From assembly GCA_025929425.1 (NCBI GenBank), contig JAICME010000002.1, positions 1-58,621 on the forward strand: a DNA stretch of 58,621 bases. Direction: 5' to 3'. A model generated the notes under the pieces. It had not been told where the DNA came from, searched no databases, and worked only from the letters and a program-made list of their open reading frames with translations. The first letter of the stretch is position 1, and each line of letters opens with the position of its first letter. This DNA comes from Thermoleophilia bacterium. GTDB lineage: Bacteria > Actinomycetota > Thermoleophilia > Gaiellales > Gaiellaceae. The position numbers and the translations under genes were made by a program. This document shows positions 14,439 to 52,660 of this stretch, piece by piece.

Positions 14439-17400
14439 ATGAGCGCGCATGCCGCACCGGCGCCTTCAGGCCTCACCTTCACGATCCGCGGCACGCCGTA
14501 CCCGGTGCTGCTTCCGAGCCTTCGCGACCCGCGGCTCCATCTGGCCGCGACCATCATCTCTCTTCAGGCGATCGGGCAGGTCGGCTTCAACTTCGAGGTC
14601 TCGATCGCTCAGATCCTGCTGGCACTCGGCACCTGCGCCCTCCTCGAGGTCGCCATCGCGATGCGCGCCCAGCGCGTCATCCTTTGGCCGGCCAGCGCGA
14701 TGCTGACGGGGAACGGCGTCGCGTTCGTGCTGCGCGTCCCCGGAACTGCGCATGGCGACTGGTGGAGCCTCAAGGGCTGGTGGATCTTCGTCGGAACGGC
14801 CGCAGCCGCGTTGCTCTCGAAGTACGTCATCCGCCGGCGCGGTGAGCACGTCTTCAACCCGTCGAACATCGGGCTCGTCATCTGCTTTCTCGCGCTCGGC
14901 CGGAACCGCGCGGCGCCGCTCGACTTCTGGTGGGGTCCGACGTCGGTCTGGCTCGCGCTCGCGCTCGCGGTCATCGTTACGGGCGGCTTCGCCATCCTCG
15001 GGCGGCTGAAGCTCCTGCGAGTGGCGGTCGGCTTCTGGGTCTCGTTCGCCGCCGCGATCGGAGTGCTCGCGCTCGCCGGACACACGATGACCGCGCGCTG
15101 GCACCTCGGCCCGATCTCCGGCTTCCACCTGTGGTGGGTGCTTGTGAGCTCGCCCGAGGTTCTCGTGTTCCTCTTCTTCATGATCACCGACCCGAAGACC
15201 GCACCGCGCTCCTCGACCGGCCGGCTCGCCTATGCGATCTCGCTCGGGCTGCTAGCCGGTGTGCTGATCGCGCCTACGACGTCCGAGTTCGCCGCCAAGG
15301 TAGCCCTCCTCGGAGCGCTGGCTCTCGTCTGCCTCGCGCTGCCGCTGCTGCGGCTGATCCCGGTTCCGCTCGAGCGGCGGCTCGTTGTCGGCCTCGCCTC
15401 GGCTGCCGTCGCAGTGGCCGCGGCGGCGATCGTGATCGGCAACGCGCCGGCCGTCGCGACTGCCTCACCCACGCTGCACTCAGGGCGTCTCCCGCCGATC
15501 ACGATCCTCCCGGGGCAGGGCGTCCAGACGAAGCTGGATCTCGGCACGGCGCAACTCATCGTCCAAGACCTGATCGCAGCGAGCCCTTCCGCGGGCTCCG
15601 GAGCGCTCCGGATCTGGCTCGTCCAGGGCGCGGAGCAGGGCCCGCCGACCGCAACAGTGCAGCGGGCGGGGCTCTCGTATCACCTTCACCAGATCCCGGA
15701 CGGGCACTGGGCGCTCCCCTCGGCGACACCCACGATCGCCCTCCGGCCGACGCCGTTGAGCACGGCGCTACGCGGCACGCACCTGACCGACGTGGCACCG
15801 GCCGTCGGTCTGGACTTCCGGCAGGACTCGTTCCGCTACGGGGTCTCGAACGAGTACACGGCAATGATGGGCGGCGGAGTCTGCTGGCTGGACTACAACG
15901 GCGACGGCTGGGAGGACCTGTTCGCCGTCAACTCGTACGCGAGTGCCGACGCGGCACGGTGGAAAGGGCACGGCGGCCTCCCGCGCTCACAGCTGTTCGA
16001 GAACGTGCACGGGCACTTTCGCGACGTCACCGCGAGAGCCCATGCCGGTCTGCAGGCACAGGGCGACGGCTGCGCCGCGGCCGATCTCGATGGCGACGGC
16101 CGGCCGGAGCTGATCGTGACGACGACGACCGGGATCAAGCTGCTCTGGAACGACGGCAACGACACCTTCACCGAGGGCGCCCGGCGGGCCGGCCTGGTCG
16201 CAGCGGGCTGGTACACCGGAGTCGCGGTGGCGGACGTCAACGGCGACGGTCGCCCGGACGTCTTCGTCGCCGGCTATGCGCGCCCGTACGACTCGGTGCC
16301 GAACTCGCTCGCCGGTTTCCCTACGAACCTCGTCGGGGTTCGCGACCTCCTCTACCTGAACGAGGGGAACGGCCCGAACGGCCGCGCCCGCTTCCGTGAA
16401 GTGGGAGTGCAGGCCGGTCTCGAGGCATCCGGGTTCTCGCACGGTCTCGGCGCAACCTTCCTCGACGTGAACGGCGACGGTCGTCCCGACCTCTACGTCG
16501 CGAACGACGAGGATCCGAACCAGCTTTACGTCAACGTTCCCTGGCCGGGCGGGGCGAAGGCCGACCCGGCGGGTCTCGGGTTCCGCTTCGAGAACCGCGC
16601 CGCGATTTCGGGAGTGGCCGATCCCTATGCCGGCATGGGCGTCGCCGTCGACGGCGCCGCGGACTCGCAACGACTGTTCGTCACGAACTCCCGGAACGAG
16701 CCATCGGCGGCGTTCAGCAAGACGATCTCGTCCTCGTTCTCGAACGCGCGACCGGACTTCGACCCGGCGCTCGGAGCGACTTTCGCCGGCTGGGGCGACT
16801 CCTTCGTAGACCTCGCCAACTCGGGGCGATCCGACCTCGTGGTCGCGACGGGCGGCATCCCCGTGACGAGCCTGCAGACGGACGCAGGGCCGGTGAAGGT
16901 CGTCGCCCCGCTCTCCGACCGGCGCGGCACCGACTACGGCCTCGCGCGGGGCATCGCACCAGGTGGCCTGCGCGTCAACGGGCGCGGTCTCGCGGCTGCC
17001 GATGTCGACAACGACGGCCGCATGGAGATCGCGGTCAACTCGATCGGCGGGAAGCTCCTCCTCCTGAAGGCGGCCGGGCCGAGCGGCCACTGGCTCGACG
17101 TGGAGCTCTCGCGCTTCACTCCGGGGGCGACGGTGACGGTCGATGTGGGCAGGAAGCGGCTTTCGCAGGAGGTTCGCGCCGGGAGCAGCTACCTCTCGTC
17201 CGAGGACGAGCGCGTGCATTTCGGACTGGGCGTCGACGCGAGGGTCTCGCGCCTGACGGTGCGCTATCCGTGGGGCGCTTGGAGCGTCCTGCACGACGTC
17301 CACGCCGACCGGATCGTCGAAGTGGCGGTTCCGCCGTTTCGTGCTCGGCACGCCACGCCCCCCTCCCGTCTGTGCCGTCGGCCGACCGCCCATGGCACGG

Positions 17401-18641
17401 TCGCGACAATCTGGGACAGGACAGCGGTCGAGATGCTCCGCTCGGGAGCGGCGAGCGAGCCGGTTCAGGCGCGCGATCTCTTCGACCTGTCCAGCGCGAT
17501 GTGGAAGGCCTGGAACGCGACCGGGCCAAAGACCGCCTCTGCTGCGATCAGCTATGCCGCGTATCGCCTGCTTCTCTGGCAGGCGTCGTTCAATTCGAAC
17601 CTGAGCAGGACGTTCGCGCTGCTCACGAACGAGATGCGCGCCCTCTGCTATTCGCCGGACTTCACCGCCACGGGAGGAAGCTCGCCCGCCGCGCTGGGCA
17701 ACCGGATCGCAGCCGCCGCGATCGCGGCGGGCGCACACGACGGCTCGAACGAGGCGCTCCACTACGCCGATCCGACTTTCACGCCGCGCAACCAACCGCT
17801 GATCGTCCCCGCAGCCGGCTCTACGGTCCATGACGCGACGTTCTGGCAGCCCCTCGCGCTCGGCACAGTCCAGCCGCACAGCCTGACCGCCACTCCGTCG
17901 AAGGTTCAGGCGTTCGTCGGTGCGCAGTGGGGTCATGTCCGCAGCTTCGCGCTCCCCCACTCGAAACGCGGGCTTCCCCTGGGCCCCGGTGTGCTGCCGC
18001 TCGGCGATCCTTCCGGCCCCGGGTACAAGCAAGCCGCCCTTGCCGTACTTCGGGCGACGTCCGGGCGAGGCGCGGGACCGCGGTCGTGGACTCCGCTCGA
18101 CTGGAACTCACTCGCTACGCGCGACGCGTCCGGCGATCTCGCCCGAGACGTTCGTCTCTACCTCGGCCTCGACGCGGCACTGAACGACGCTGCCGTAGCC
18201 ACGTGGGGAGCGAAACGGATCTACGACGGACCGAGGCCGATCTCGATGATCCGCTATCTCGCGTTCCAGGGCCAGTCCAGCCACCCCGACGAGGCGCACT
18301 GGAGCGCCGACGGCCTGCCGACCGTTCCGGGGCTGGTCGTGCTGCGCGGCGGCACGATCCAGGTGCTCTCGAACGGCCACTGGATCGAGGGCGCAAGGTG
18401 GTCACCTCCCGCAGCCACGCCCGCCTCGCCCGGCAGCGTCGCCGAGAGCAGCGCATTCGCCTACGCCGCGGGAAAGGTGTTGACCGCACTCACGGGACAC
18501 GCCTACACAGGGAAGATGCGAGCGGCGAGCGCGGCTCCGCTCGCAGCCGGAATCGATCTCCCAGCGGATGTGACGGCAGGACGCAAAATCGGCGAGCGCG
18601 TCGCGGAGCTCGTGCTCCGCAAGCTCCGCGCATACCGCTAG
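14439..18641 (+). CDS. Giant fusion: NqrB/RnfD-like membrane domain, FG-GAP/CRTAC1, ASPIC/UnbV and haloperoxidase-like domain
   Basis: 1400 residues from ATG 14439 without interruption. Residues ~30-390 are about ten membrane helices with 'VFNPSNIGLVI' and 'FFMITDPKTAP', as in NqrB/RnfD subunits. From ~480 an extracellular beta-propeller carries calcium-binding repeats: 'DYNGDGWED', 'DLDGDGRPE', 'DVNGDGRPD' (twice) and 'DNDGRME'. Residues ~895-965 look like ASPIC/UnbV ('VRAGSSYLSSEDERVHFGLG'). Residues ~985-1400 resemble vanadium-haloperoxidase/PAP2-like DUF6851 proteins ('YDGPRPISMIRYLA'). At the usual 'SGHS' catalytic-His block it reads 'VAESSAFAYAAGKVLTALTG', so the acid-base His appears lost. 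Function unknown; a membrane-anchored surface protein is likely. Confidence 0.82.
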   Translation: MSAHAAPAPSGLTFTIRGTPYPVLLPSLRDPRLHLAATIISLQAIGQVGFNFEVSIAQILLALGTCALLEVAIAMRAQRVILWPASAMLTGNGVAFVLRVPGTAHGDWWSLKGWWIFVGTAAAALLSKYVIRRRGEHVFNPSNIGLVICFLALGRNRAAPLDFWWGPTSVWLALALAVIVTGGFAILGRLKLLRVAVGFWVSFAAAIGVLALAGHTMTARWHLGPISGFHLWWVLVSSPEVLVFLFFMITDPKTAPRSSTGRLAYAISLGLLAGVLIAPTTSEFAAKVALLGALALVCLALPLLRLIPVPLERRLVVGLASAAVAVAAAAIVIGNAPAVATASPTLHSGRLPPITILPGQGVQTKLDLGTAQLIVQDLIAASPSAGSGALRIWLVQGAEQGPPTATVQRAGLSYHLHQIPDGHWALPSATPTIALRPTPLSTALRGTHLTDVAPAVGLDFRQDSFRYGVSNEYTAMMGGGVCWLDYNGDGWEDLFAVNSYASADAARWKGHGGLPRSQLFENVHGHFRDVTARAHAGLQAQGDGCAAADLDGDGRPELIVTTTTGIKLLWNDGNDTFTEGARRAGLVAAGWYTGVAVADVNGDGRPDVFVAGYARPYDSVPNSLAGFPTNLVGVRDLLYLNEGNGPNGRARFREVGVQAGLEASGFSHGLGATFLDVNGDGRPDLYVANDEDPNQLYVNVPWPGGAKADPAGLGFRFENRAAISGVADPYAGMGVAVDGAADSQRLFVTNSRNEPSAAFSKTISSSFSNARPDFDPALGATFAGWGDSFVDLANSGRSDLVVATGGIPVTSLQTDAGPVKVVAPLSDRRGTDYGLARGIAPGGLRVNGRGLAAADVDNDGRMEIAVNSIGGKLLLLKAAGPSGHWLDVELSRFTPGATVTVDVGRKRLSQEVRAGSSYLSSEDERVHFGLGVDARVSRLTVRYPWGAWSVLHDVHADRIVEVAVPPFRARHATPPSRLCRRPTAHGTVATIWDRTAVEMLRSGAASEPVQARDLFDLSSAMWKAWNATGPKTASAAISYAAYRLLLWQASFNSNLSRTFALLTNEMRALCYSPDFTATGGSSPAALGNRIAAAAIAAGAHDGSNEALHYADPTFTPRNQPLIVPAAGSTVHDATFWQPLALGTVQPHSLTATPSKVQAFVGAQWGHVRSFALPHSKRGLPLGPGVLPLGDPSGPGYKQAALAVLRATSGRGAGPRSWTPLDWNSLATRDASGDLARDVRLYLGLDAALNDAAVATWGAKRIYDGPRPISMIRYLAFQGQSSHPDEAHWSADGLPTVPGLVVLRGGTIQVLSNGHWIEGARWSPPAATPASPGSVAESSAFAYAAGKVLTALTGHAYTGKMRAASAAPLAAGIDLPADVTAGRKIGERVAELVLRKLRAYR

Positions 18642-19903
18642 CGGCCGGAGCGGGCCTGCAGACGGACGGCGACCGTGTCGAGCGTCACCGCTCCGAGGAG
18701 CACGAGCCCAGTGACGATGTAGATCCAGCCGTTCGAGATGCTCAGCGTATTGAGGCCGTTCTGCAACGTTCCGATCAGCACGGCCCCGAGCAACGCGCCG
18801 CGCACCTCGCCGCGGCCGCCGAAGAGGCTGACGCCGCCGATCACCGCGGAGGCGATGGCGTTCAGGAGCAAGTTTCCCGGCGGAAACGTCAGCGCAACCG
18901 AGTTGACCTGCGCCGCGAAGATGATGCCGCCGATCCCGGCGGTGGCGCCCGAGATCATGAACACGATGACCTTGATGCGCTTCACGCTGATACCGGAGCG
19001 ACGCGCAGCCTCCGCATTGCCTCCGACCGCATAGACGTGGCGGCCGAACGTCGTCCACTTGGCGAGGAACGTCAGCAGCACGAAGAAGAACACGATGATC
19101 AGGCCCGCCAGCGGCAGCCCTTCGGGCGTGTCGATGATCTTGCCGTTGTTCGCGATCGCCACCGACCCGAACGCCGCGATCCCGATGCCGATGGTCTTCA
19201 GGCCGGCCGAGATCCAGCTCTGCTGGCCGATCTGAGTGCCTCGCGCGACGATCTTCTTGTACAGGACGCTCGCCGGGTAGAGCGCCGTGAAGATCGCGGC
19301 GATCGGCCAACCAGCCCCGGGAGAGAAGATGTACGCGTCGGTGTAGTTGATCCAGCGGTCCTGGATGATGATCGTGCCGCGCTGCTGGAGCTCGTTGAGG
19401 ATCACGCCCTGCCAGATCAGGAAGCCGCCGAGCGTGACCACGAAGGAGGGAACACCGACGAACGCCACGATCGACCCCTGGACGCCTCCGATCACCGCGC
19501 ACACGGCGACGGCCACCAGCATCGCGAGGATGCCGTTCATCTGCCAGCTGCTTCCGGGGAGCTGGAGCTCGGCGACGACGAGCGCCCCGATGCCTGCGAG
19601 GTAGCCGATCGAAAGATCGATCTCGCCGAGGAGGAGAACGAAGACGACGCCGTAGGCGAGCATCGCCGTGCCGGCGGTCTCCGTGATCAGGTTGACGAAG
19701 TTGACCGACGTGAAGAAGTTCGTCGCCGTGAAGCCGAAGATGATGACGACGGCGATCTCGCCGACGATGATCGGGACCGGCCCGAGGTTGCCGGTGCGCA
19801 CGTTGAGCCATGCGCGCTCCCACACACCCTGGATGCCGTCGGAGATGCGCTCCTCCTCGAGCGGCGGCGCGCGATCGGGCCCGACGACGTCGGCCGAGGT
19901 CAC
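18638..19903 (-). CDS. Sugar ABC transporter permease (XylH-like)
   Basis: 421 residues beginning at GTG 19903, which overlaps the stop of the ATPase gene by 4 nt (GTGA). About ten to twelve membrane helices are visible. 'LLLGEIDLSIGYLAGIGALV' and 'RHVYAVGGNAEAARRSGISV' (the EAA-like loop) place it in the BPD_transp_2 family with XylH/RbsC. It forms the channel for a monosaccharide importer with the two upstream genes. The length matches XylH better than RbsC (about 320), supporting a pentose substrate. Its stop shares CTAG with the convergent fusion gene. Confidence 0.9.
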   Translation of the reverse strand: MTSADVVGPDRAPPLEEERISDGIQGVWERAWLNVRTGNLGPVPIIVGEIAVVIIFGFTATNFFTSVNFVNLITETAGTAMLAYGVVFVLLLGEIDLSIGYLAGIGALVVAELQLPGSSWQMNGILAMLVAVAVCAVIGGVQGSIVAFVGVPSFVVTLGGFLIWQGVILNELQQRGTIIIQDRWINYTDAYIFSPGAGWPIAAIFTALYPASVLYKKIVARGTQIGQQSWISAGLKTIGIGIAAFGSVAIANNGKIIDTPEGLPLAGLIIVFFFVLLTFLAKWTTFGRHVYAVGGNAEAARRSGISVKRIKVIVFMISGATAGIGGIIFAAQVNSVALTFPPGNLLLNAIASAVIGGVSLFGGRGEVRGALLGAVLIGTLQNGLNTLSISNGWIYIVTGLVLLGAVTLDTVAVRLQARSGR

Positions 19904-20682
19904 GCGTCGACTCCTGCAGGCGATGCGGAAATCCCGGCGACCTTCGTGGGCTTGCCGGCCGTGATCGCCTCGACCACCGCCTGCTGCGTGGTCTTTCTGC
20001 GCTCGAACACGCCGACGTTCCGTCCGAGCCGGAGCACCGTGATCCGGTCCGCCGTCTCGAAGACGTCGTGGAGGTTGTGCGAGATGAGGATCACGCCGAG
20101 CCCCTGCTCTCCGAGCCTCCGAACCAGTTCGAGCACCTGTTCGGTCTGCGCCACGCCGAGCGCGGCGGTCGGCTCGTCGAGAACGACGAGTTTCGAGTTC
20201 CACATCACTGCTCGCGCGACGGCCACGGACTGACGCTGGCCGCCGGAGAGCGTCGCCACCGTCTGGCGCACCGACTTGATCGTCGTGACCGCCAGCGACT
20301 TCAGCGTCTCGGAGGTGTGCTGCTCCATCGGCGCCTCGGAGAGGATCTGAGCGCGACTTATCTCGCGACCGAGGTACATGTTCTGGACGACGTCGAGGTT
20401 GTCGCAGAGCGCGAGATCCTGGTAGACGACCTCGATCCCGAGTCGCGCGGCGTCCTTCGGCCCGTGAATGTGCACCTCTTTGCCCTCGAACACGATCCGG
20501 CCGCTGTCGGCCGAGTGCGTGCCTGCGATGCATTTGACGAGCGTGGACTTGCCGGCCCCGTTGTCGCCCACCAGGGCCATCACCTCTCCGTCCATGACCT
20601 CGAAGTCGACGTCGGTCAGCGCCTGCACCGAGCCGAACGTCTTCGTGATGCCTTGCAGATGGAGAAGTGGCGTATCGCTCAT
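19900..20682 (-). CDS. Sugar ABC transporter ATP-binding protein, single domain
   Basis: 260 residues with Walker A 'GDNGAGKST', signature 'LSGGQRQSVAVARAV', Walker B 'LVVLDEP' followed by 'TAALGVAQ', and the switch His in 'LISHNLHDVFE'. It belongs to the monosaccharide (XylG/RbsA/FrcA) group, but unlike XylG it has one nucleotide-binding domain, so it must act as a homodimer, as in FrcA-type systems. The order is binding protein, ATPase, permease; it is coupled to the permease by a 4-nt overlap and separated from the binding-protein gene by a hairpin. Confidence 0.92.
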   Translation of the reverse strand: MSDTPLLHLQGITKTFGSVQALTDVDFEVMDGEVMALVGDNGAGKSTLVKCIAGTHSADSGRIVFEGKEVHIHGPKDAARLGIEVVYQDLALCDNLDVVQNMYLGREISRAQILSEAPMEQHTSETLKSLAVTTIKSVRQTVATLSGGQRQSVAVARAVMWNSKLVVLDEPTAALGVAQTEQVLELVRRLGEQGLGVILISHNLHDVFETADRITVLRLGRNVGVFERRKTTQQAVVEAITAGKPTKVAGISASPAGVDA

Positions 20683-20710
20683 CGAGGGTCGCTCCTGGGC
20701 GAGAAGAGCG

Positions 20711-20743
20711 TGGTGGAGGCGCCCTTCACGGACGCCTCCACCA
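20711..20743 (-). terminator. Intercistronic hairpin between binding-protein and ATPase genes
   Basis: TGGTGGAGGCG and CGCCTCCACCA form a perfect 11-bp stem with an 11-nt loop, 17 nt after the binding-protein stop. No U-tract follows, so it may be a leaky terminator or a 3' stabiliser that keeps binding-protein mRNA more abundant than the ATPase/permease part, as is common for importer operons (inference). Confidence 0.7.
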
Positions 20744-20759
20744 TCTCAGAGTGGACGAG

Positions 20760-21836
20760 CTACTTGCAGTACTTCTTGTACTGCCCGATGCAGACTTCCT
20801 TCTTCGTCAGCCACTTCTGCGTGAACAGCTGTTTGTAGTTCTTCTTCGTGATCCAGGTGACCGGCAGGGTGAGCGTGGGCTCCTTCTTCTTGCCGTTCAG
20901 GCGGAAGCCGTTCGTCTTCGGCTTCTGCCCATGGAGCAGCGCGATCGCCGCGGCCGCCGCGGCGTTCGCCTCGAGCGACACCTTCTTGTAGACCGTACCC
21001 GACTGCCAGCCGGCGAGGATGTACTGGACGCCCTGCGCCGTCGTGTCCTGGCCGGACAGGGGGATCGGCTTGAGATGCTTCGCCTTCAGGTCGGCGACCA
21101 CTGCGCCGGCGATGTTGTCGTTCGCCGCGATGACGCCCTGGATGTTGTTGTTCGTCTTGACGAGCATCTGGTTGAAGATGGTCGCGGCGTTGGTCGCGTC
21201 CCAGTCGGGAACGAACTTCTGCGGCCCCTTCTTCAGAGAGTGCTTCTTGAAGAGCGGGTTGAGGACAGCGTCGTTGCCGCTCTTGAACCAGAAGGCGTTC
21301 TGGTCGGTCTGTCCGCCCCAGAGCTCGGCGACGGTGCTCGACTTCTTGTACGTCCCCTTCGCCTTCATCGCGGCGATGATGCCGTTGGCCTGCGCCGCGC
21401 CGACCGCCTTGCCGTCGAACGTGTCGTAGACGGACGCCGTGCCGCCGATGACCTGGCGGTCGTAGTCGATCGCCTTTCCACCTTTGTCCGTGAAGAGCTT
21501 CTCGATCGACGACGCGGACCCGTTGTCGAGCGACGTCTCGATCACGACCTTGGCGCCCGCTGCGAGGCAGGCCTGCGCCTGCGCCTTCTGCTTCAGCGGA
21601 TCGTTGAGCGCGTTGTTGATCGAGGCCGTGACGCCGGCCTTGGCGAACGCGGCCTTGAGTAGCGGCGCATCGAACTGCACCCAGCGCACGGACGACTTCG
21701 TGTCCGGTAGCAGGACGCAGACCTGCACGTTGGACGATGTCTTCTTCGTGCTCGCGACGGCGGCCGCGGAGACTGCCAGTGCGACAACCCCGATGCCGAG
21801 CACGAGGATCAGACCCTTCGTACGAAACTTCTTCAC
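20760..21836 (-). CDS. Sugar ABC transporter substrate-binding protein (XylF-like)
   Basis: 358 residues. GTG 21836 is chosen because GGAGGG lies 8 nt upstream and the protein then begins directly with a lysine-rich n-region and hydrophobic signal ('LILVLGIGVVALAVSAAAVAS'). The mature part is a periplasmic-binding-protein-1/Peripla_BP_4 fold: 'VCVLLPDTKSSVRWVQFDAPLL', 'GVIAANDNIAGAVVADLKA' and 'IPLSGQDTTAQGVQYI', the last two being ligand-contact blocks of XylF-type receptors. No lipobox Cys is obvious, so anchoring is unclear. It heads the importer operon, divergent from the isomerase gene by 195 bp. Confidence 0.92.
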   Translation of the reverse strand: MKKFRTKGLILVLGIGVVALAVSAAAVASTKKTSSNVQVCVLLPDTKSSVRWVQFDAPLLKAAFAKAGVTASINNALNDPLKQKAQAQACLAAGAKVVIETSLDNGSASSIEKLFTDKGGKAIDYDRQVIGGTASVYDTFDGKAVGAAQANGIIAAMKAKGTYKKSSTVAELWGGQTDQNAFWFKSGNDAVLNPLFKKHSLKKGPQKFVPDWDATNAATIFNQMLVKTNNNIQGVIAANDNIAGAVVADLKAKHLKPIPLSGQDTTAQGVQYILAGWQSGTVYKKVSLEANAAAAAAIALLHGQKPKTNGFRLNGKKKEPTLTLPVTWITKKNYKQLFTQKWLTKKEVCIGQYKKYCK

Positions 21837-22031: not shown

Positions 22032-23030
22032 GTGAAGACCAGTCTCGGCATCTGGGCCTTCGGCGGAATGGCGACGCGGTTCAATCCCGGCGGATACAAG
22101 CCGGAACTGGCGAGCATCTCGACGGTAGAGAAGGTCCGCACGGCAGTCGGTGGGCTGGGCGACCTGATCGACGATTACGAATTCCACTATCCGCAGGAGA
22201 TCTCGCACGACAACCTCGAGGCAGTCCGCGACGCGCTCGACGGACACGGGATCTACTGCATCGCGAGCGGCCTCCATCTCGACCCCCGTTTCGGCAAGGG
22301 AGGGTTCTGCTCGCCGGACGACGCGACGCGCGCGGAGGCTCTGCGCCTCACCCGGGACGCGATCGACCTGGCGGCCGATGTCGGCGCGCAAATGATCATC
22401 TGGCCGGGGATCGAGGGCTACAACTACCCCTTCCAGACGCCGTACGCCGACTCGTGGACGCGTTTCGTCGACGGCGTCGAAGAGGCCGCCAGGCATGCGC
22501 GTGAGCGAGGCGTCACGGTGTTTCTCGAGCACAAGAACTCCGAGCCCGCCATGAAGATCCTCATGCGCAACGTCGGCATGACGCTGCACGTCATCCACAC
22601 CCTGCGCACCCGTGGCATCTCGAACGTCAAGGTCAACATGGACTGGCAGCACCTGATCATGAACGGCGAGAACCTCGCCGAATATGCGGCGCTTCTGGCC
22701 GCCGAAGGGCTGCTCGGCCATCAGCACGCGAACTCCGGCTGGGGCACGTTCGACGACGACAACATGGTCGGCGCGACGGCCTTCATGGAGACACTCGAGC
22801 TCGCGCTCGAACTGCGCCGCGCCGGCTACGGCGAAAACGGCGAGCGCCTCGGCTTCGACCTCTATCCGTACACCGAGGATGCGGTCGGGGCCGTGAAGCG
22901 GTCGGTGCTTCAGTGGAGATTCATCGACGAGGTCGCCGCCAGGATCGACGAGACGGAGCTGAGACGCGCCCAGCAGGCGAAGGACGCCGTCCGTGCGTAC
23001 GAGCTCGTGTACGCCGCGCTCGGCGCGTAG
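22032..23030 (+). CDS. Xylose isomerase-like TIM-barrel sugar isomerase
   Basis: 332 residues from GTG 22032. Conserved blocks 'IIWPGIEGYNYPFQTPY', 'VFLEHKNSEPAMKILMRNVG' (metal-binding Glu), 'VKVNMDWQHLIMNGENLAEY' and 'LLGHQHANSGWGTFDDDN' carry the Glu, Asp and His residues that hold two divalent metals in xylose isomerases. The sequence is shorter than classical XylA (about 390), and belongs to the AP-endonuclease-2-like branch. It likely converts xylose (or a related aldose) to the ketose used by the kinase that follows 1 nt later. The substrate assignment rests on the neighbours. Confidence 0.82.
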   Translation: MKTSLGIWAFGGMATRFNPGGYKPELASISTVEKVRTAVGGLGDLIDDYEFHYPQEISHDNLEAVRDALDGHGIYCIASGLHLDPRFGKGGFCSPDDATRAEALRLTRDAIDLAADVGAQMIIWPGIEGYNYPFQTPYADSWTRFVDGVEEAARHARERGVTVFLEHKNSEPAMKILMRNVGMTLHVIHTLRTRGISNVKVNMDWQHLIMNGENLAEYAALLAAEGLLGHQHANSGWGTFDDDNMVGATAFMETLELALELRRAGYGENGERLGFDLYPYTEDAVGAVKRSVLQWRFIDEVAARIDETELRRAQQAKDAVRAYELVYAALGA

Positions 23031-24400
23031 TGCCTCTCGTCGGCCTCGACGTCGGCACCTCCGCGGTCAAGGGCGTCGCGATCGACGAAGAAGGGCGCCT
23101 GCTCGCCACGGCGAGCGCGGGGTACCCGCTCTCGCGGCCGCAGCCGGGCTGGTCGGAGCAGGAGCCCGAGGACTGGTGGTTCGCCGCGAGAGACGTGCTG
23201 GGTCAGCTGCCCGAGGGGCCGGTTGGACTGTCCGGTCAGATGCACGGGCTCGTCGTCCTCGACGCCGAGCACCGTCTGCTGCGCCCTGCGATCCTCTGGA
23301 ACGACCAGCGCACCGCCGCCGAGTGCGCGGAGATCGAGGAGCGGATCGGGTTGCATCGGCTCCTCGAGCTGACGGGGAACCGCGCACTGCCGGGTTTCAC
23401 CGCGCCGAAGCTGTTGTGGATGCGGAGGCACGAGCCCGAGCTGTACGGACGGATCCGGCACGTTCTGCTCCCGAAGGACTACGTCCGCCTGCGGCTGACC
23501 GACGAGCTCGCGACCGACGTCGCCGATGCCTCCGGGACGCTCCTCTTCGACGTCCGCCGACGCGCCTGGTCGGAGGAGGTCTGCGCGGCGCTCGAGATCC
23601 CGCTCGAGTGGCTTCCGTCCGCCCGCGAGTCGACAGAAGTGGCCGGCGCCGGCGATCAGGCAGCAGCCGCGCTCGGCGTCGGCGTCTCGCGGCCGGGGCC
23701 AGTCTCGGTGGTGCTGGGGACCTCCGGCGTCGTCTTCGCCGCCCTCCCCGGTTACGAGCACGACCCTCAAGGCCGACTACATGCGTTCTGCCACGCGGTG
23801 CCCGACACGTGGCACGCAATGGGCGTGATGCTGAGCGCAGCAGGCTCCGCCGCCTGGCTCCGCGAAGTGCTCGCCGCAGACGTCGCTGTTCTCGAGCAGG
23901 AGGCCGAGCGCCTCCCGCCCGAAAGCGAAGGGCTGCTCTTCGCCCCGTACCTCGCAGGCGAGCGCACGCCGCATCCGGATCCCGACGCGCGCGGCGCGTT
24001 CGTCGGCCTCTCTGCCCGGCACGATCGCGGTGCGCTCTGGCGAGCGATGCTGGAGGGCGTCGCCTACGGGCTCCGGGACTCCCTCGAACTGCTCCGCGAA
24101 CTCGGCGCACGGCCCGAGAGCGGCCGCATCTCGGGCGGGGGCGCGCGGAGCGAGCTCTGGCTTCGGATCCTCGCCTCGGTGCTCGAGCTTTCGCTCGAGA
24201 CGACCGAATCCGAGGAGGGGTCCGCGTTCGGCGCCGCGCTCCTCGCCGGCGTCCGTGCAGGTGTCTTCTCGGACGCCGACGAGGCCGTCTCGCGCTGCGT
24301 CCGGACCCGGCGTCGAATCGAGCCGGAGTGGGACTACGGCCGCGGTTACCGGCGCTTCCGCCGGCTCTACCCCACCCTCAGACCCCTGGAGGAGCCTTGA
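23030..24400 (+). CDS. xylB: Xylulokinase (FGGY carbohydrate kinase)
   Basis: 456 residues; GTG 23030 overlaps the isomerase stop (TAGTG). The FGGY fold is complete: phosphate 1 'VGLDVGTSAVKGV', the xylulokinase-type 'GLSGQMHGLVVLD', 'ILWNDQRT', the catalytic Asp in 'GAGDQAAAALG' near residue 208, and the ATP-binding 'RISGGGARSELW'. The 'MHG' motif separates xylulokinases from glycerol kinases. It phosphorylates D-xylulose to xylulose 5-phosphate for the pentose phosphate pathway. Its neighbours, an isomerase and a XylF-like importer, support this. Confidence 0.9.
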   Translation: MPLVGLDVGTSAVKGVAIDEEGRLLATASAGYPLSRPQPGWSEQEPEDWWFAARDVLGQLPEGPVGLSGQMHGLVVLDAEHRLLRPAILWNDQRTAAECAEIEERIGLHRLLELTGNRALPGFTAPKLLWMRRHEPELYGRIRHVLLPKDYVRLRLTDELATDVADASGTLLFDVRRRAWSEEVCAALEIPLEWLPSARESTEVAGAGDQAAAALGVGVSRPGPVSVVLGTSGVVFAALPGYEHDPQGRLHAFCHAVPDTWHAMGVMLSAAGSAAWLREVLAADVAVLEQEAERLPPESEGLLFAPYLAGERTPHPDPDARGAFVGLSARHDRGALWRAMLEGVAYGLRDSLELLRELGARPESGRISGGGARSELWLRILASVLELSLETTESEEGSAFGAALLAGVRAGVFSDADEAVSRCVRTRRRIEPEWDYGRGYRRFRRLYPTLRPLEEP

Positions 24401-25101
24401 CCGACCTGACTGGAAAGACCGCCGTGATCACGGGAGCAAGCCGGGGCATCGGCGCCGCCGTTGCCCGGAGCCTTCACGAGCGCGGGTGCAATCTCGGCCT
24501 CGCGTCCCGCAGCGGGAGCGACCTCGGACTCGAGCGCGTCGTCGCGCGTCCCTGCGACGTCCGCGACCTCGATGCACTCGTCGAGCTCTGCGACGCCACC
24601 GCCGAACGGTTCGGCGGCATCGACATCGTCGTCCCGAACGCCGGCGTCGGCGCCTACGGGCCCTTCCTCGACCTTTCGCGTGATCACCTCGACGAGATGC
24701 TCGATGTGAACCTCAAGGGCACCGTGTACGCCGTCCGCGCGGCGCTTTCCCACATGCTCGGGCGGGAGGGAGACGTCGTCACGCTGGCCTCCGAGGCCGG
24801 CCGCCGCGGCCTTCCCTACGAAGCGGTCTACTGCGCGTCGAAGTTCGGACAGGTCGGGCTCACGCGCGCGCTCGACCACGAGCTTCGAGAGCAGGGGATC
24901 CGGTGCACCAACGTCTGCCCGGGCGGGGTCGCAACCGATTTCGCGCTCGAAGAAGGACGCGGGCGGCCACACGAGGCGCTCGCCGGAATGATGACCCCGG
25001 AGGATGTCGCTGAGATCGTCGTGTTCGCGCTCGAACGTCCTCGGCATCTGCGAATCCTGGAGACCGCGCTCCGGCCGGTGAGCGAGCCGTCATGGGGGTG
25101 A
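24397..25101 (+). CDS. Short-chain dehydrogenase/reductase
   Basis: 234 residues beginning at TTG 24397, which overlaps the kinase stop (TTGA) and has GGAGG a few nt upstream. The NAD(P) motif 'TGASRGIG', the 'NAGVG' motif and the active-site 'YCASK' with the preceding Ser in 'VTLASEAGRR' are all present; 'CPGGVATDF' follows, as in classical SDRs. It is the last gene of the isomerase-kinase operon, so it may act on a sugar or sugar-derived ketone, but SDR specificity cannot be read from sequence. A strong hairpin follows its stop. Confidence 0.9.
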   Translation: MTDLTGKTAVITGASRGIGAAVARSLHERGCNLGLASRSGSDLGLERVVARPCDVRDLDALVELCDATAERFGGIDIVVPNAGVGAYGPFLDLSRDHLDEMLDVNLKGTVYAVRAALSHMLGREGDVVTLASEAGRRGLPYEAVYCASKFGQVGLTRALDHELREQGIRCTNVCPGGVATDFALEEGRGRPHEALAGMMTPEDVAEIVVFALERPRHLRILETALRPVSEPSWG

Positions 25102-32700: not shown

Positions 32701-35403
32701 GTGCAGACGGCAGTCGGACTCTCCCTCGCCCTCGTCTCCGCCATCCTCGTCAACTGGGCGTATGCGCGCGAGCATGACGCAGCGGCCGAGATGCCGCGCT
32801 TCTCGCCGCGTCGACCGGTCGAGTTCGTGCGGCTTCTGCTCGCCGACCGGTTCTGGGTGCGAGCGTTCGCCACCGAGAGCATCGGCTGGCTGATCTACGT
32901 CGCTGCCTTGCGGCTTGCGCCGCTGTCTCTCGTCCAGGCGGTCTGCGCTTCCGGAATCGCGGTCCTGGCGCTGGTCAGCGTGCAGGGGCGGCCGGGACGA
33001 CTTGCCGCGCACGAGCGACTCGCGGTGCTTCTGGCCCTCGGCGGCCTCGTTCTCCTCTCCCTGTCGATCGTCGGCACCCATCAGGCCGACCATCCTCCCC
33101 ACCCCGCCGCGGTCGCTTTGTGGCTCGGGCTCCTCCTGGCCGCCGCGGTCGGGCTCGGCCGGAGGAGATCCGGTCTCGCGGTCGGGCCGGCACTCGGCCT
33201 GACGGCAGGGCTCCTCTTCGCCGGCGGTGACATCTCGGCCAAGCTCGTCGTCTACGGCGGCCCCTGGCTCGCGGCGGCAGCGACGCTCGTCGTCTTCTAC
33301 GGCCTCGGGACGAGCGTCCTCCAGAGCTCGTTCCAGCATGCGGACGCACTCACCGGAGCCGGTCTCGCGACGCTGGCCACGAACGCGGTCCCCATCGCAG
33401 CCGGCTTCGTCGTCTTCGGCGAGCAGCTACCGCACGGCACGAAGGGCACGCTGCAGGTGGCTTCCTTCGGCCTCCTCGTGCTGAGCGGCGTACTGCTCGC
33501 GCGAGTGCCGAGGAGGAGCTCGGCCGCCGCGCGACCGCGCGGGCCGGCGATCTCCGTGGATGCGGTGCGCCGGCACGGCCGGCGCCTCGTCGCAGCCACG
33601 GCTCTGGCCGGCGTCTTGGGAGGCATCGTTCTGTTCGCGCTGGGCCAGCGGCTGGCCGCGGACTGGTTCTGGGCGGCAACGACGGCGCTGCTCCTCGGAC
33701 CGCTTGCGCTCTCCGTTCTCCGCTCGCTCCTGCGTCGGGATGTCGGCGTCGACGCGATCGCGCTCGTGGCGATGGCAGGTGCGCTCGGGCTCGGCGAGTA
33801 CCTGGCCGGAGCGGTGATCGCGCTCATGCTCGCGGGCGGCAACGCCCTCGAGGAGACGGCCAACCGGCGCGCCAAGCGCGAGCTGACAGCGTTGGTCGAT
33901 CGCGCCCCGCGGGTCGCGCTGCTACGGCGCGGGGACGAGGTGATCAAGGTCGACGTCGACCAGGTAGGCGTCGGCGACCGCATCCTCGTACGTGCGGGCG
34001 AAGTCGTTCCGGTGGACGGGATGGTCGAAAGCGAGGAGGCGATCGTCGACGAGTCGGCGCTCACCGGTGAGCCGCTGCCGGTCACGGTGCGCCGCGGCGG
34101 ACAGGTACGCAGTGGGACGACGAGCGCAGGGGCGCCGTTCGAGGTGACGGCGATCCGGCCGGCGGCCGAGAGCGCCTACGCCGCGCTCGTGCGACTCGTC
34201 GAGCATGCGGAGCAGGAGCGAGCGCCGTTCGTCCGTCTCGCCGACCGCTATGCGGCGATCTTCCTCCCCGTCACGACCGCCGTCGCGGGAATCGCCTGGG
34301 CGGTCTCGGGAGATGCCGTCCGGGCTCTCGCCGTCTTCGTCGTGGCCACTCCGTGCCCACTCATCCTCGCCGCGCCGATCGCGCTCATGTCGGGTCTCTC
34401 CCGGTGCGCGCGCGCCGGCATCGTCGTCAAGGGAGCCGCCACGATCGAACAGCTCGGCGAAGCGCACTCCGTGCTCCTCGACAAGACCGGCACCGTCACG
34501 CTCGGCCACCCGGAGCTCGAGCGCGTCGCACCGCTCGACGGCATGGATCCCGACGAGACGCTCCGCCTTGCAGCGAGTGTCGATCAGCTCTCCTCGCATC
34601 CCCTCGCCCATGCCCTCGTTGCGGGAGCCGGCGCCAGGGGACTCCACCTCGAGCTGCCGGGGCACGTCCGCGAGTCCTTCGGCCGCGGGATCTCCGGCGA
34701 GGTCGACGGCCACGAGGTGCTGGTCGGCAGCTGGAACTGGCTGAACGAGCACGGGATCGAGGCCACCGTCCCCGCGGAGCTCGACGGCGCGGCGAAGGTC
34801 CTGGTCGCCGTGGACGGCCGGCCGGTCGGCGTCGCGCTGATCGGCGACCGTCTGCGCGCCGACGCGGGCCGGCTCGTTCCGCGGCTCCGCGAGGCAGGCA
34901 TCCGACACGTCGCTCTCGTCACCGGCGACAAGGCTGCGACGGCCGACGAGGTCGGCGCAACGCTGGGAGTCGATCGCGTCTACTCCGAGCAGAGCCCTGC
35001 AGAGAAGCTCGAGATCGTGCGGGCACTCCAGTCGCAGCCCGAGCTGCACTCGATCGTGATGGTCGGAGACGGCATCAACGACGCTCCGGCGCTTGCACTC
35101 GCGGACGTGGGCGTCGCGATGGGGTCCGCCGGTGCCACCGTCTCCTCCGAGACCGCGGACGCCGTGATCCTCGTCGACCGGGTCGACCGCATCGCGGAGG
35201 CGGTTCGGTTCAGCCGCCGCGCCATGTACATCGCCCGGCAGAGCGTCCTCCTCGGACTCGGCGCCTCACTCTGCGCGATGGGCTTCGCCGCGGCCGGCTA
35301 CCTGCCGCCGGTCGCCGGCGCGCTCCTGCAGGAAGGAATCGACGTCGCCGTGATCCTCAATGCGCTACGCGCCCTCACCGATTCACCGGAGGTGAAGCCA
35401 TGA
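32701..35403 (+). CDS. Fusion of EamA/NIPA-like transporter and P1B-type heavy-metal ATPase
   Basis: 900 residues in one frame from GTG 32701. Residues 1-~272 form about nine membrane helices of the drug/metabolite (EamA/NIPA-like) superfamily, for example 'IGWLIYVAALRLAPLSLVQA' and 'DALTGAGLATLATNAVPIAAGF'. From ~285 a P1B ATPase without an N-terminal metal domain follows: 'DESALTGEPLP', 'VATPCPLILAAP', 'LLDKTGTVT', 'HPLAHALVAG', 'VMVGDGINDAPAL'. The membrane motif is TPC rather than CPC, so it is not a standard Cu or Zn/Cd pump. No stop separates the parts. GTG 33556 could in principle start the ATPase alone. It is coupled to the USP gene by ATGA. Confidence 0.88.
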   Translation: MQTAVGLSLALVSAILVNWAYAREHDAAAEMPRFSPRRPVEFVRLLLADRFWVRAFATESIGWLIYVAALRLAPLSLVQAVCASGIAVLALVSVQGRPGRLAAHERLAVLLALGGLVLLSLSIVGTHQADHPPHPAAVALWLGLLLAAAVGLGRRRSGLAVGPALGLTAGLLFAGGDISAKLVVYGGPWLAAAATLVVFYGLGTSVLQSSFQHADALTGAGLATLATNAVPIAAGFVVFGEQLPHGTKGTLQVASFGLLVLSGVLLARVPRRSSAAARPRGPAISVDAVRRHGRRLVAATALAGVLGGIVLFALGQRLAADWFWAATTALLLGPLALSVLRSLLRRDVGVDAIALVAMAGALGLGEYLAGAVIALMLAGGNALEETANRRAKRELTALVDRAPRVALLRRGDEVIKVDVDQVGVGDRILVRAGEVVPVDGMVESEEAIVDESALTGEPLPVTVRRGGQVRSGTTSAGAPFEVTAIRPAAESAYAALVRLVEHAEQERAPFVRLADRYAAIFLPVTTAVAGIAWAVSGDAVRALAVFVVATPCPLILAAPIALMSGLSRCARAGIVVKGAATIEQLGEAHSVLLDKTGTVTLGHPELERVAPLDGMDPDETLRLAASVDQLSSHPLAHALVAGAGARGLHLELPGHVRESFGRGISGEVDGHEVLVGSWNWLNEHGIEATVPAELDGAAKVLVAVDGRPVGVALIGDRLRADAGRLVPRLREAGIRHVALVTGDKAATADEVGATLGVDRVYSEQSPAEKLEIVRALQSQPELHSIVMVGDGINDAPALALADVGVAMGSAGATVSSETADAVILVDRVDRIAEAVRFSRRAMYIARQSVLLGLGASLCAMGFAAAGYLPPVAGALLQEGIDVAVILNALRALTDSPEVKP

Positions 35404-42265: not shown

Positions 42266-44509
42266 TCAGGGGATCTCGTTCCGGACGACGTCGAAGCGGC
42301 GGAGACGCAGGCTGTTGCTGACGACGAAGACGCTCGAGAACGCCATGGCCGCTCCCGCGATGATCGGGTTGAGGTAGCCGCTGGCCGCGAGTGGCAGGGC
42401 AGCGACGTTGTAGGCGAAGGCCCAGAAGAGGTTTCCCTTGATCGTCCGGAGCGTTCGGCGGGCAAGCCGGATCGCGTCGCCTGCGGCCTGGAGGTTGCCG
42501 CTGACGAGCGTGAGGTCGCTCGCCTCGATCGCGATGTCGGTTCCGGTGCCGATGGCGAGGCCGAGATCGGCCTGTGCGAGAGCCGGTGCGTCGTTGACGC
42601 CGTCCCCGACCATCGCAACGACATGTCCCTCGTCCTGGAGGCGACTCACCACCGCAGCCTTGTCGGCGGGGAGCACCTCGGCGATCACGTCCTCGATGCC
42701 GACCTCTGCGGCGACGACGCGGGCGGTGTGCTCGTTGTCGCCGGTGAGGAGGACCGGCCGCAGGCCGAGCCGCCGCAGCTCCGCGACAGCTGCGGCGCTG
42801 GTGGGCTTCACCGTGTCGGCGACCACGAGGACGACGCGGACTCCGCCGTCCCAGGCGGCAGCGATGGCCGTCCGGCCGGCTGCCTGAGCCTCCCGCAGCG
42901 CCGTGTCCAACTCGGGCGGCAGCTCGACGCCCCACTCCTGCAACAGCGCCGGCCGGCCCGCGACGACGGCGTGCCCGTCCACGACGCCTTCGACGCCGAG
43001 GCCGTCCCGGTTCCGGAACGAATCGACGGTGGCAAGCGTCGTGCGGGCGGCTGCCGCGTCGGCGATCGCGCGCGCGATCGGATGCTCGGAGGCGTGCTCG
43101 AGCGAGCCGACGAGATGAAGGGCTCGCTCGGGATCGACACCCTCGGCAGGGACGATGTCGACGAGGCTCATCGTGCCGGTGGTGACGGTGCCGGTCTTGT
43201 CGAGCACGATGCTGTCGATCCGGCGGGTCGACTCGAGAACCTGCGGGCCTTTGATCAGGAGACCGAGCTGAGCACCTCGGCCGGCGCCGACCATCAGCGC
43301 CGTCGGGGTTGCGAGCCCCAGGGCACAGGGGCAGGCGATGATCAGGACGGCGACCGCGGCAGTGAACGCGAAGGTCGCACCCGCGCCGTTTGCGAGCCAG
43401 AAGCCGAGCGCTGCGACGGCGATCCCGATCACGATCGGCACGAACACCCCGGCGATGCGGTCGGCGAGCCGCTGCACTGGAGCCTTGCCCATCTGCGCGT
43501 TCTCGACGAGGCGCGCGATCTGGGAGAGCGCGGTATCGGCTCCGACCTTGGTCGCCCTGACGACCAGCCGGCCACCGGCGTTCACCGTGGCGCCGGCGAC
43601 CTCGGAACCGCTGCCCACCTCCACCGGGACGGACTCGCCGGTGAGCAGGCTCATGTCGACCGCCGAGAAGCCCTCCTCGACGATCCCGTCGGTCGCGATC
43701 TTCTCGCCGGGACGAACGACGAAGCGCTCCCCCACCTGGAGCTGCTCGACCGGAACCCTCCGCTCGGCGCCGTCGGCATCGAGGATCGAGACGTCCTTGG
43801 TCCCCAGCTCGAGCAGTGACTTCAAGGCGGCTCCTGCCCGGCGCTTCGCCCGCGCCTCGAAGTAGCGGCCCGCCAGGATGAAGGTCGTGACGACCGCGGC
43901 CGTCTCCAGATAGATCTCGTTCGTACCCCCGCCGACCTTGGGGACGAGCGTGAACGCCATCTTCATCCCGTCTGCGCCCGCGTCGCCGAGGAAGAGGGCG
44001 TAGAGAGACCAGGTCCAGGCGGCGAGCACCCCGAGCGAGACGAGCGTGTCCATCGTCGCGGTCGCGTGCTCGAGGTTCGCCCAGGCCGCACGGTGGAAGG
44101 GCCACGCCGCCCATGTGACGACAGGGGTGGCGAGCTGCAAGGCGAGCCACTGCCAGTGGTTGAACTGCAGGGCCGGGATCATCGAGACGAGCAGCACCGG
44201 CAGCGTGAGCACGGCCGATCCGACCAGCCGGAACCGCAGCGGACGCGTCGCGTCGGCCTCCGCTGCAGGCTCCTCCGCCTCCCCTGCGAGAGGCAAGGTC
44301 GCCGAGTAGCCTGCGGCTTCGACCGCGGCGACGAGCTCTTCCGGCACGACTGCATCCGCGTCGTAGCCCACGCTTGCCTTCTCGGTCGCGTAGTTGACCG
44401 TCGCCGTGACTCCTTCGAGTTTGTTCAGCCTGCGCTCGATCCGACTCGCGCAGGAAGCGCAGGTCATGCCCTGGATGGGCAGCTCGATGGTCGCAAGCGT
44501 GGTGCTCAC
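42266..44509 (-). CDS. copA: Copper-exporting P1B-type ATPase CopA
   Basis: 747 residues from GTG 44509. One N-terminal heavy-metal domain ('[16 protein letters not shown]'), then '[11 protein letters not shown]', the copper-type membrane motif '[12 protein letters not shown]', 'VLDKTGTVT', the HP dipeptide in '[12 protein letters not shown]', and '[15 protein letters not shown]'. C-terminal membrane residues '[17 protein letters not shown]' (N, Y) and '[15 protein letters not shown]' (M, SS) match Cu(I) ATPases. It exports Cu(I) at the cost of ATP. It is coupled to the upstream gene (GTGA overlap) in a three-gene operon with a CopZ-like chaperone. Confidence 0.95.
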
Positions 44510-45626: not shown

Positions 45627-46832
45627 ATGAGCGCCTCTCGTCGCGCTACGGCGAATCTCGTACTCGCGACTCTCGCCTTCGCCCTCTGCTTCACCGCCTG
45701 GAGCCTGATCGCCCCATTCGCGAAGACGTTCAAGCACGACCTCGGCCTCGACTACACGGAGGCGTTGCTGCTCACCGCGATTCCGGTCGTGCTCGGGTCG
45801 CTGTTGCGCGTGCCACTCGGGATCGTCACCGACCGCTACGGCGGCCGCTTGGTCTTCACTCTGCTGCTCGCGTTCTCGGCACTGCCCGCGGTGCTGTTCG
45901 GTTACGCGCATGCCTACTGGGCGCTCCTGTGCGTGGGATTCCTGCTCGGGACAGCGGGCGCGTCGTTCGCGGTCGGTGTGCCTTTCGTTGCGGGCTGGTA
46001 CGGGCGCGAGCGACAGGGGTTCGCGCTCGGGATCTACGGGATCGGGAACATCGGCACTGCGATCGCGTTCTTTGGAGCTCCCCCGGTCTCGAATCACTGG
46101 GGACGGGCGACGGTTGGATGGATCACAGGAATCGCGCTGCTCGCCGGAGCTGCCCTCTTCTATCTCCTCGCGCGTGACGCGCCGTCCCGCGGCGCACCGG
46201 CCGACTACGGCGCGGTGCTGCGAGGTGGCTGGCGGCTGTACCGGCTCGCCTTCTTCTACTTCATCACCTTCGGCGGCTTCGTGGCGATGGGTTTCCTGCT
46301 GCCGACGCTGTTGCAGGACTGGTTCGGTTACTCGAAGAGCGTGGCTGGAGCGCGTGCCGCCGGCTTCATCATTGCGGCGACGGTGGCGCGCCCGGTGGGC
46401 GGGTGGGTCGCCGACCGAGTCGGGCCGGTGCCGGTGCTGGTGCTCGCCTTCGCCGGGATCGCGATCGATGCCGCCGTACTGGCCACGCTCGCTCCGGTGC
46501 CGCGCATCGTCCCGGTGTCGATCGCCTGTCTGACCCTCGGCTGCTTCCTCGGGGCCGGGAGCGGAGCCGTGTTCAAGATCGTTCCGGGCGAGTTCCCGGA
46601 CAACCCCGGCGCAGCCGCGGGGGTGGTCGGTGCGGCAGGGGGGCTCGGCGGTTTCTTCCCGCCTATCTACGTTGGGCTGGTGAAGGACGCGGAAGGCACC
46701 TACACCTACGGCTTCGTAGGGCTGCTCGTGTTCGTGATCGGCTGTCTGCTGCTGGCCGTGTGGCTGCTGCGCACCGCCCCGCCACAGGAGCTCAGAGGTG
46801 GGACCGCATCTTCACTCGATCGAGGTCCGTAA
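45627..46832 (+). CDS. narK: Nitrate/nitrite MFS transporter NarK
   Basis: 401 residues with 12 membrane helices. Nitrate-porter features include 'RVPLGIVTDRYGGR' (conserved TM2 Arg), the glycine-rich signature 'GFLLGTAGASFAVGVPFVAGWY' in TM5 and 'GAGSGAVFKIVPGEFPDNPGAAAGVVGAAGGLGGF' (second nitrate signature, TM11). The single-copy, 12-helix form and its place before narG indicate nitrate import or nitrate/nitrite exchange for respiration. The stop is 13 bp from narG. Confidence 0.94.
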   Translation: MSASRRATANLVLATLAFALCFTAWSLIAPFAKTFKHDLGLDYTEALLLTAIPVVLGSLLRVPLGIVTDRYGGRLVFTLLLAFSALPAVLFGYAHAYWALLCVGFLLGTAGASFAVGVPFVAGWYGRERQGFALGIYGIGNIGTAIAFFGAPPVSNHWGRATVGWITGIALLAGAALFYLLARDAPSRGAPADYGAVLRGGWRLYRLAFFYFITFGGFVAMGFLLPTLLQDWFGYSKSVAGARAAGFIIAATVARPVGGWVADRVGPVPVLVLAFAGIAIDAAVLATLAPVPRIVPVSIACLTLGCFLGAGSGAVFKIVPGEFPDNPGAAAGVVGAAGGLGGFFPPIYVGLVKDAEGTYTYGFVGLLVFVIGCLLLAVWLLRTAPPQELRGGTASSLDRGP

Positions 46833-46845
46833 GACTCGCGAAACA

Positions 46846-52025: not shown

Positions 52026-52660
52026 TCCGCACCCGCCGAGCGAACGCCATTCCGTTCAAGCTCGTCTCGGTCCTGCTCCGCTACCCGGACCGGGGTCTCG
52101 TGGAGGCACGCGAGGAGCTCGCCGCCACGGTGGCTGCGCTGCCGCGGTCGCCGCAGCGCGAGCCACTGCAGCGCTTCGTCGCCCACCTCGCCGAGAGGAC
52201 CCAGACGGAGCTCGAGCGGCAGTACGTCGAGACGTTCGACCTGCGCCGCCGCTCAGGGCTCTACCTGAGCTACTACGTCCACGGCGACACGCGCAAGCGC
52301 GGCATGGCACTGCTGCGCCTGAAACGGCTCTACGCCGCCGCCGGACTCGAGCTCACGAGCGGTGAACTGCCCGACTACCTGCCCCTGATGCTCGAGTTCG
52401 CCGCGCTCGCCCCGCCTGGCGCGGGCGAGACCCTCCTGCGCGAGTACCGCCCCTCGCTCGAGCTCCTTCGCGCCGGCCTTCACGACGACGGTAGCCCGTA
52501 CGCCGCTGTCCTCGATGCCCTCTGCGTCGGCCTGCCGCGCCTGTCGGCGCTCGAGCGCGAGCACGTCCGCGTCCTCGGCGAACAGGGGCCGCCCGACGAG
52601 CAGGTGGGTCTGCAGCCGTTCGCGCCGCCCGAGGTGATGCCGACGGAGGCGCGCGTATGA
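52022..52660 (+). CDS. narJ: Nitrate reductase assembly chaperone NarJ
   Basis: 212 residues, all-helical TorD/NarJ fold. 'LVSVLLRYPD' at the N-terminus, 'LERQYVETFDLRRRSGLYLSYYVHGDTRKRG' in the centre and 'LPDYLPLMLEFAAL' are standard NarJ blocks. It holds apo-NarG for molybdenum cofactor insertion. ATGA overlaps on both sides enforce coupled synthesis. Confidence 0.95.
   Translation: MIRTRRANAIPFKLVSVLLRYPDRGLVEAREELAATVAALPRSPQREPLQRFVAHLAERTQTELERQYVETFDLRRRSGLYLSYYVHGDTRKRGMALLRLKRLYAAAGLELTSGELPDYLPLMLEFAALAPPGAGETLLREYRPSLELLRAGLHDDGSPYAAVLDALCVGLPRLSALEREHVRVLGEQGPPDEQVGLQPFAPPEVMPTEARV

Follow-up and report, generated by a model that had tools for sequence, protein, structure and literature searches.

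The question raised by the locus described here is what kind of protein joins, in a single polypeptide, a membrane domain of the RnfD/NqrB type, a CRTAC1-like propeller with an ASPIC domain and a haloperoxidase-like domain. The gene lies within a stretch of 58,621 nucleotides (hereafter the window; contig JAICME010000002.1, positions 1 to 58,621 of the forward strand, assembly GCA_025929425.1), which comes from a 2.7-Mb metagenome-assembled genome (MAG), about 86% complete, of a Thermoleophilia bacterium of the Gaiellaceae. The answer favoured here, and held tentatively, is that the gene may encode a one-piece cell-surface redox or binding protein, namely a transmembrane flavoprotein that is complete in itself and serves a surface protein of the CRTAC1 type. 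The parts of the gene, as called from Pfam profiles, phmmer searches against the PDB and AlphaFold models compared by Foldseek, are as follows.

14439-18641, plus strand: whole gene of 1400 aa, consisting of RnfD/NqrB-like membrane domain, CRTAC1-like propeller/ASPIC and degenerate haloperoxidase-like domain (open reading frame; eight related loci with identical architecture)
14529-15440, plus strand: membrane domain, 11 predicted helices, residues 31-334 (AlphaFold2, Foldseek, PF03116)
14706-14708, plus strand: Thr90, equivalent of the NqrB riboflavin contact Thr162 (58 of 59 homologues; alignment to NqrB through RnfD)
14841-14864, plus strand: GEHVFNPS, residues 135-142, corresponding to NqrB G198-x-N200-x-x-N203-x-A205, with N200 replaced by His and A205 by Ser (alignment)
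14928-14933, plus strand: invariant Trp164-Trp165 in the outside loop that holds the flavinylated Thr in RnfD/NqrB; SGAT motif absent (alignment)
15177-15191, plus strand: FMITD, with Phe247 and Asp251 corresponding to the NqrB riboflavin contacts Phe342 and Asp346 (Phe247 in 58 of 59, Asp251 in 59 of 59)
15474-15758, plus strand: juxtamembrane residues 346-440, corresponding to the extracytoplasmic extension of stand-alone relatives but shorter
15759-17333, plus strand: CRTAC1-like FG-GAP propeller with Ca-type DxDxDG loops and the ASPIC domain, the latter at 17124-17318 (Pfam, phmmer, Foldseek 9etn)
17379-18638, plus strand: haloperoxidase-like helical domain, vanadate site predicted to be destroyed (9l8x match; Foldseek 9l8x/8cxl/3w35)
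18213-18239, plus strand: K-x6-R-P motif (KRIYDGPRP), the sole vanadate-site motif retained (motif alignment)

The open reading frame (ORF) runs from an ATG at 14439 to a stop at 18641 with no internal stop. An alternative GTG start at 14286 is also open and would give a longer protein; the relatives begin at about the ATG position instead. A first-pass annotation of this DNA had proposed one uninterrupted product of three such parts. This was borne out by the open frame of 1400 aa and by the continuous ORF repeated in eight other loci, and domain searches and structure prediction (AlphaFold/Foldseek) supported all three folds.

The membrane domain was matched by the Pfam family NQR2_RnfD_RnfE (PF03116) at residues 43-276 with 33.4 bits against a cut-off of 27.7, which some relatives fall just under, and it scored far from the cut-off of the NCBIfam rnfD subfamily. 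Its AlphaFold2 model has a mean pLDDT of 88; in a Foldseek comparison with the PDB the only notable matches were RnfD and NqrB, with probability 1.00. The NqrB/RnfD similarity of this region was therefore upheld; the region, which had been placed at residues 30-390, is real, with its helices spanning about residues 31-334. Positive charges were found on the even loops, including the N-terminus, and the positive-inside count accordingly indicates an N-in, C-out topology after 11 helices.

Riboflavin in Vibrio NqrB is contacted by T162, G198, N200, N203, A205, F342 and D346 (PMC10739449, PMC9325719, PMC10643135), and Asp346 mutants lose activity (PMC10643135). Transfer of these positions by alignment through RnfD gave as equivalents T90 (conserved in 58/59 family sequences), G135 (54/59), H137 (51/59), N140 (59/59), S142 (57/59), F247 (58/59) and D251 (59/59), so that by sequence alignment five of the seven contacts are retained and two are substituted (Asn200 to His, Ala205 to Ser). 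A further measure of constraint is given by 23 positions invariant in the 59 membrane-domain sequences, the polar ones including W83, S86, R99, K128, N140, N143, E240, D251, E283 and K287. The flavinylation motif [ST]GA[ST] is absent from the relevant loop in 93 homologues (two chance matches lie elsewhere), and an invariant Trp-Trp occupies the family's loop where RnfD/NqrB hold the flavinylated Thr. No FMN_bind domain was found in the genome; an ApbE gene is present, but away from the fusion locus. With no motif in the loop and no FMN_bind in the genome, flavinylation was rejected as a mechanism, and the flavinylated Thr for which the first-pass annotation had proposed a check is missing. 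On alignment evidence, the predicted non-covalent riboflavin site is largely kept and the covalent flavin mononucleotide (FMN) site is lost.

No pump appears to be built around this domain. The single PF03116 match in the genome is the fusion gene itself, RnfA/E-type genes (PF02508) were detected neither in the genome (a MAG about 86% complete) nor in two more complete relatives, and the NAD-binding domain PF00175 was not found by Pfam in the fusion protein. The earlier statement that no multi-subunit pump partners are encoded is thus in agreement with these searches, and the suggestion that the protein is "membrane-powered" is unsupported, since such partners are absent.

The outside part begins with FG-GAP repeats, followed by a UnbV_ASPIC match at residues 896-960 (54.9 bits). 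CRTAC1 (9etn) was matched by phmmer and was also the first Foldseek match of the outside part (E 1.5e-21, TMt 0.70), which agrees with the FG-GAP/CRTAC1 repeats and ASPIC domain named in the first-pass annotation. No other ASPIC gene was found in the genome. The propeller has no conserved redox cysteines and only lineage-specific pairs, which are probably disulphides. To our knowledge, CRTAC1/ASPIC proteins, which are found from bacteria to humans, have no agreed biochemical role. The name "CRTAC1 family protein" was met in one paper only, where such a gene adjoins hydrazine-synthase-like genes (PMC12758564), and no paper was found that treats UnbV and RnfD together.

The last domain was modelled with lower confidence. 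It matches the vanadium haloperoxidase 9l8x by phmmer; 9l8x, 8cxl and 3w35 are among the further Foldseek matches of the outside part, and DUF6851 was detected at residues 1032-1105 below the Pfam cut-off. In all nine fusions (see below) the K-x6-RP motif is retained, whereas the (P)SGH motif with the catalytic His and the SRx5H motif with the vanadate-ligand His are absent, so that the vanadate site has lost its two His and one Arg. K-x6-RP, SGH and SRx5H are all intact in the aligned relatives that lie outside the fusion, which come from six further genomes of the phylum. The haloperoxidase domain of the nine fusions is therefore a predicted pseudo-enzyme, its site having apparently died in the membrane-fused lineage, and the haloperoxidase-like domain of the first-pass annotation stands as a fold and not as a working enzyme. 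One genome (G163, L144:3351-6797) encodes a 1149-aa propeller-ASPIC-haloperoxidase fusion with intact vanadate motifs and without the membrane domain, and in another (G227, L147) ASPIC and haloperoxidase are adjacent genes, again without it. These arrangements indicate that the association of ASPIC with haloperoxidase predates the membrane fusion or extends beyond it.

The same architecture was found in eight further loci (L044, L045, L046, L048, L050, L051, L052, which is the same gene as L026, and L053), bringing the three-part gene to nine related Thermoleophilia-type genomes, the window included. The eight fusions share 67-85% identity with the window in the membrane domain and 56-71% in the last domain. 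Sequence is conserved across the joints between domains, which excludes mis-assembly. Although the window is a MAG contig, and separate genes might in principle have been fused by assembly or annotation, the eight other loci come from different MAGs and have the identical continuous ORF with conserved joints; this explanation was rejected and has a negligible probability.

The membrane family extends well beyond the three-part gene. Within the phylum, 13 of the 397 genomes searched have strong relatives of the domain, and across GTDB genomes at least 528 places were found, the 80 best of which are mostly from Actinomycetota and Chloroflexota; viral contigs gave no relatives. Architecture and neighbourhood were counted in these best 80 of at least 528 GTDB loci combined with the loci of the phylum search (90 loci in all). 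Ten of them, including L027 and L030, have the membrane domain with propeller/ASPIC and without the last domain (two of the ten, L049 and L056, are truncated by contig ends), and at many loci the membrane domain is alone. In such stand-alone relatives (e.g., L067, L068, L106) the membrane domain is followed by some 110-200 conserved extracytoplasmic residues, an extension that has no Pfam match and is shortened in the three-part fusion. In a quick tree, some branches of which are weak, a single Thermoleophilia-type clade holds the three-part genes and another single clade the genes linked to DM13, and propeller fusions occur in two or more distinct clades.

ASPIC/CRTAC1 is fused or adjacent in 24 of 36 loci (3-kb flanks on both sides, DM13 clade left out), and adjacent copies occur in all four relative orientations, on either side of the membrane gene and on either strand relative to it. 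An ASPIC gene is present at all in 29 of 397 genomes of the phylum sample, compared with 6 of the 13 that have the membrane family (hypergeometric p about 1e-4). Much of this co-occurrence is driven by the fusions, and physical linkage is therefore the stronger argument. The membrane domain is thus an undescribed family that is recurrently partnered with CRTAC1, the parts themselves being known. In 12 loci of one clade, a sister clade of the membrane protein (L036, L037, L038, L105, L109, L110, L113, L115, L119, L120, L122, L123) a gene for a protein of roughly 290 aa with a DM13 domain at its end lies directly upstream of the membrane gene or one gene away. Some of these loci also have a major facilitator superfamily (MFS) transporter. 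A CMD gene (PF02627, AhpD-like) adjoins the membrane gene, in varying orientation, in 18 loci (L028, L064, L067, L068, L073 and 13 others), many of them from Chloroflexota.

In the window the fusion gene converges on sugar-type ATP-binding cassette (ABC) transporter genes in the order permease, ATPase, binding protein, followed by a TIM-barrel isomerase, an FGGY kinase and a short-chain dehydrogenase/reductase (SDR).

18638-21836, minus strand: sugar-type ABC transporter, i.e., permease, ATPase and binding protein (convergent with the fusion gene, 4-base overlap)
22032-25101, plus strand: xylose-isomerase-like TIM barrel, FGGY sugar kinase and SDR, the SDR being named from its sequence (same locus as the ABC transporter)

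ABC-transporter neighbours are likewise present in relatives of the window fusion. A sugar-type ABC permease or binding-protein gene was found within 8 kb at 7 of 8 triple fusions, 3 of 10 double fusions, 7 of 28 ASPIC-adjacent loci, 2 of 32 unlinked loci and 0 of 12 DM13 loci. Unfused ASPIC/haloperoxidase genes of other lineages also have a transporter of this kind as neighbour (L144, L147), the propeller-ASPIC-haloperoxidase gene of L144 being directly downstream of a sugar-type ABC operon, and a galK/galT ABC locus contains one ASPIC gene (L148). The frequency of these neighbours suggests that the outside substrate is perhaps a sugar or sugar-containing compound. HbpS-like and cupin/D-lyxose-isomerase-like genes adjoin the fusion gene in relatives (L062:7904-8299, L046:7126-7581 and homologues).

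If the protein is a transmembrane flavoprotein as proposed, its membrane domain would bind one flavin near the cytoplasmic side, and electrons would pass across it, in either direction, between the cytoplasmic or quinone pool and the outside. The outward-facing propeller would hold the outside substrate or partner, a job which the DM13 protein would fill in the sister clade, and the dead haloperoxidase domain would probably bind a ligand or carbohydrate without catalysis. For the membrane-anchored extracellular redox protein of the first-pass annotation, the anchoring of the outside part agrees with the predicted topology; its redox function, i.e., electron transfer by the fusion protein, is one that we infer. 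Several observations weigh against such a conduit. The outside FMN is gone, and it is not evident how electrons would get from the flavin on the cytoplasmic side to the outside; there are neither the quinone-site helices of Nqr nor an NqrF domain, and hence no electron donor is evident; and no redox centre was recognised in the propeller or ASPIC domain. Furthermore, 32 of the 90 loci have no partner that was seen, though many contigs are short, the redox role of DM13 is taken from the family name, and the sugar-locus counts within Thermoleophilia partly reflect plain synteny among relatives, with no random-locus control.

Two other functions for the membrane domain were weighed, each of them improbable. 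It could be a transporter or channel for an ion or small solute (perhaps derived from sugar breakdown), placed beside the binding propeller and the ABC transporter. This would fit the relation of the RnfD/NqrB fold to ammonium/urea transporters and channels (PMC12174285), the fact that covalent FMN and every redox partner have been lost, and the transporter genes in the neighbourhood; however, the retention of Thr90, Gly135, Asn140, Phe247 and Asp251 at 54-59 of 59 is hard to explain without a flavin, and in the sister clade the partner is a DM13 protein, of an "electron transfer" family. Equally, it could do no more than anchor and export a CRTAC1-type binding protein, its former flavin pocket having been retained for stability. 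An anchor would be in keeping with the lack of any other recognisable redox part, with the mainly binding role of CRTAC1-type propellers and with the catalytically dead haloperoxidase domain, but 11 helices and 23 invariant positions in 59 sequences, polar ones included, represent a constraint far beyond the needs of an anchor, and many relatives stand alone with no fused partner. A working redox or halogenating enzyme, in which electrons or peroxide are fed to the vanadium haloperoxidase domain, is very improbable and was rejected: the fold and the K-x6-RP motif speak for it, whereas SGH and SRx5H are lost in the nine fusions and intact in aligned relatives outside them, and the nearest membrane-linked relatives have no haloperoxidase domain.

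The single-flavin transmembrane protein thus preferred was compared with known systems. It resembles RnfD/NqrB (PF03116; Rnf, Na+-NQR) in fold, in the TG/FNP/TDP motifs and in most riboflavin-contact residues, and differs in having no flavinylated Thr and no RnfA/E, RnfC, RnfG or NqrF partners, and in having an additional 11th helix and outside C-terminal domains. The nearest outside relatives found by sequence are examples (L040-L042) of the two-subunit Nqr/Rnf-like flavinylation systems (Meheust et al., 2021, PMC8238504; PMC10979944), which also have an NqrB/RnfD-like domain without a flavinylation site and no pump core; here, in contrast, there is no NqrF-type NAD-binding domain and no FMN_bind or ApbE neighbour, and the outside partner is CRTAC1-like or DM13. 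The order of propeller and ASPIC domain and the 9etn fold are shared with CRTAC1/UnbV (FG-GAP + ASPIC) proteins, which are normally secreted and separate and are here joined to a membrane redox-type domain. The helical fold and K-x6-RP are those of vanadium-dependent haloperoxidases (DUF6851/VCPO type; 9l8x, 8cxl NapH3, 3w35), whereas the second Arg and both active-site His have gone and fewer residues separate the last two motifs. As the first-pass annotation had noted, the combination matches no known system, none being described in the literature searched.

The recurrent fusion or pairing of an RnfD/NqrB-like domain with CRTAC1, together with sugar-uptake loci, offers a concrete and testable lead on the role of bacterial CRTAC1/ASPIC proteins. 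The recurrence of the combination, fused or neighbouring, among many soil bacteria suggests that electrons cross the membrane by a one-protein route not yet studied; if true, the RnfD/NqrB fold would work outside multi-subunit pumps with a single non-covalent flavin. That the family is a widespread undescribed class of single-protein transmembrane flavin conduits ("solo RnfD"), serving CRTAC1-type surface propellers or DM13 proteins, possibly in extracellular-sugar redox, and giving bacterial CRTAC1 proteins a first function, is a more doubtful proposal.

Elsewhere in the window, a NarK-type transporter and a narGHJI respiratory nitrate reductase operon were found at 45627-53367, and two heavy-metal P-type ATPases are encoded at 32701-35403 and 42266-44509, the first with about 320-350 extra N-terminal residues.

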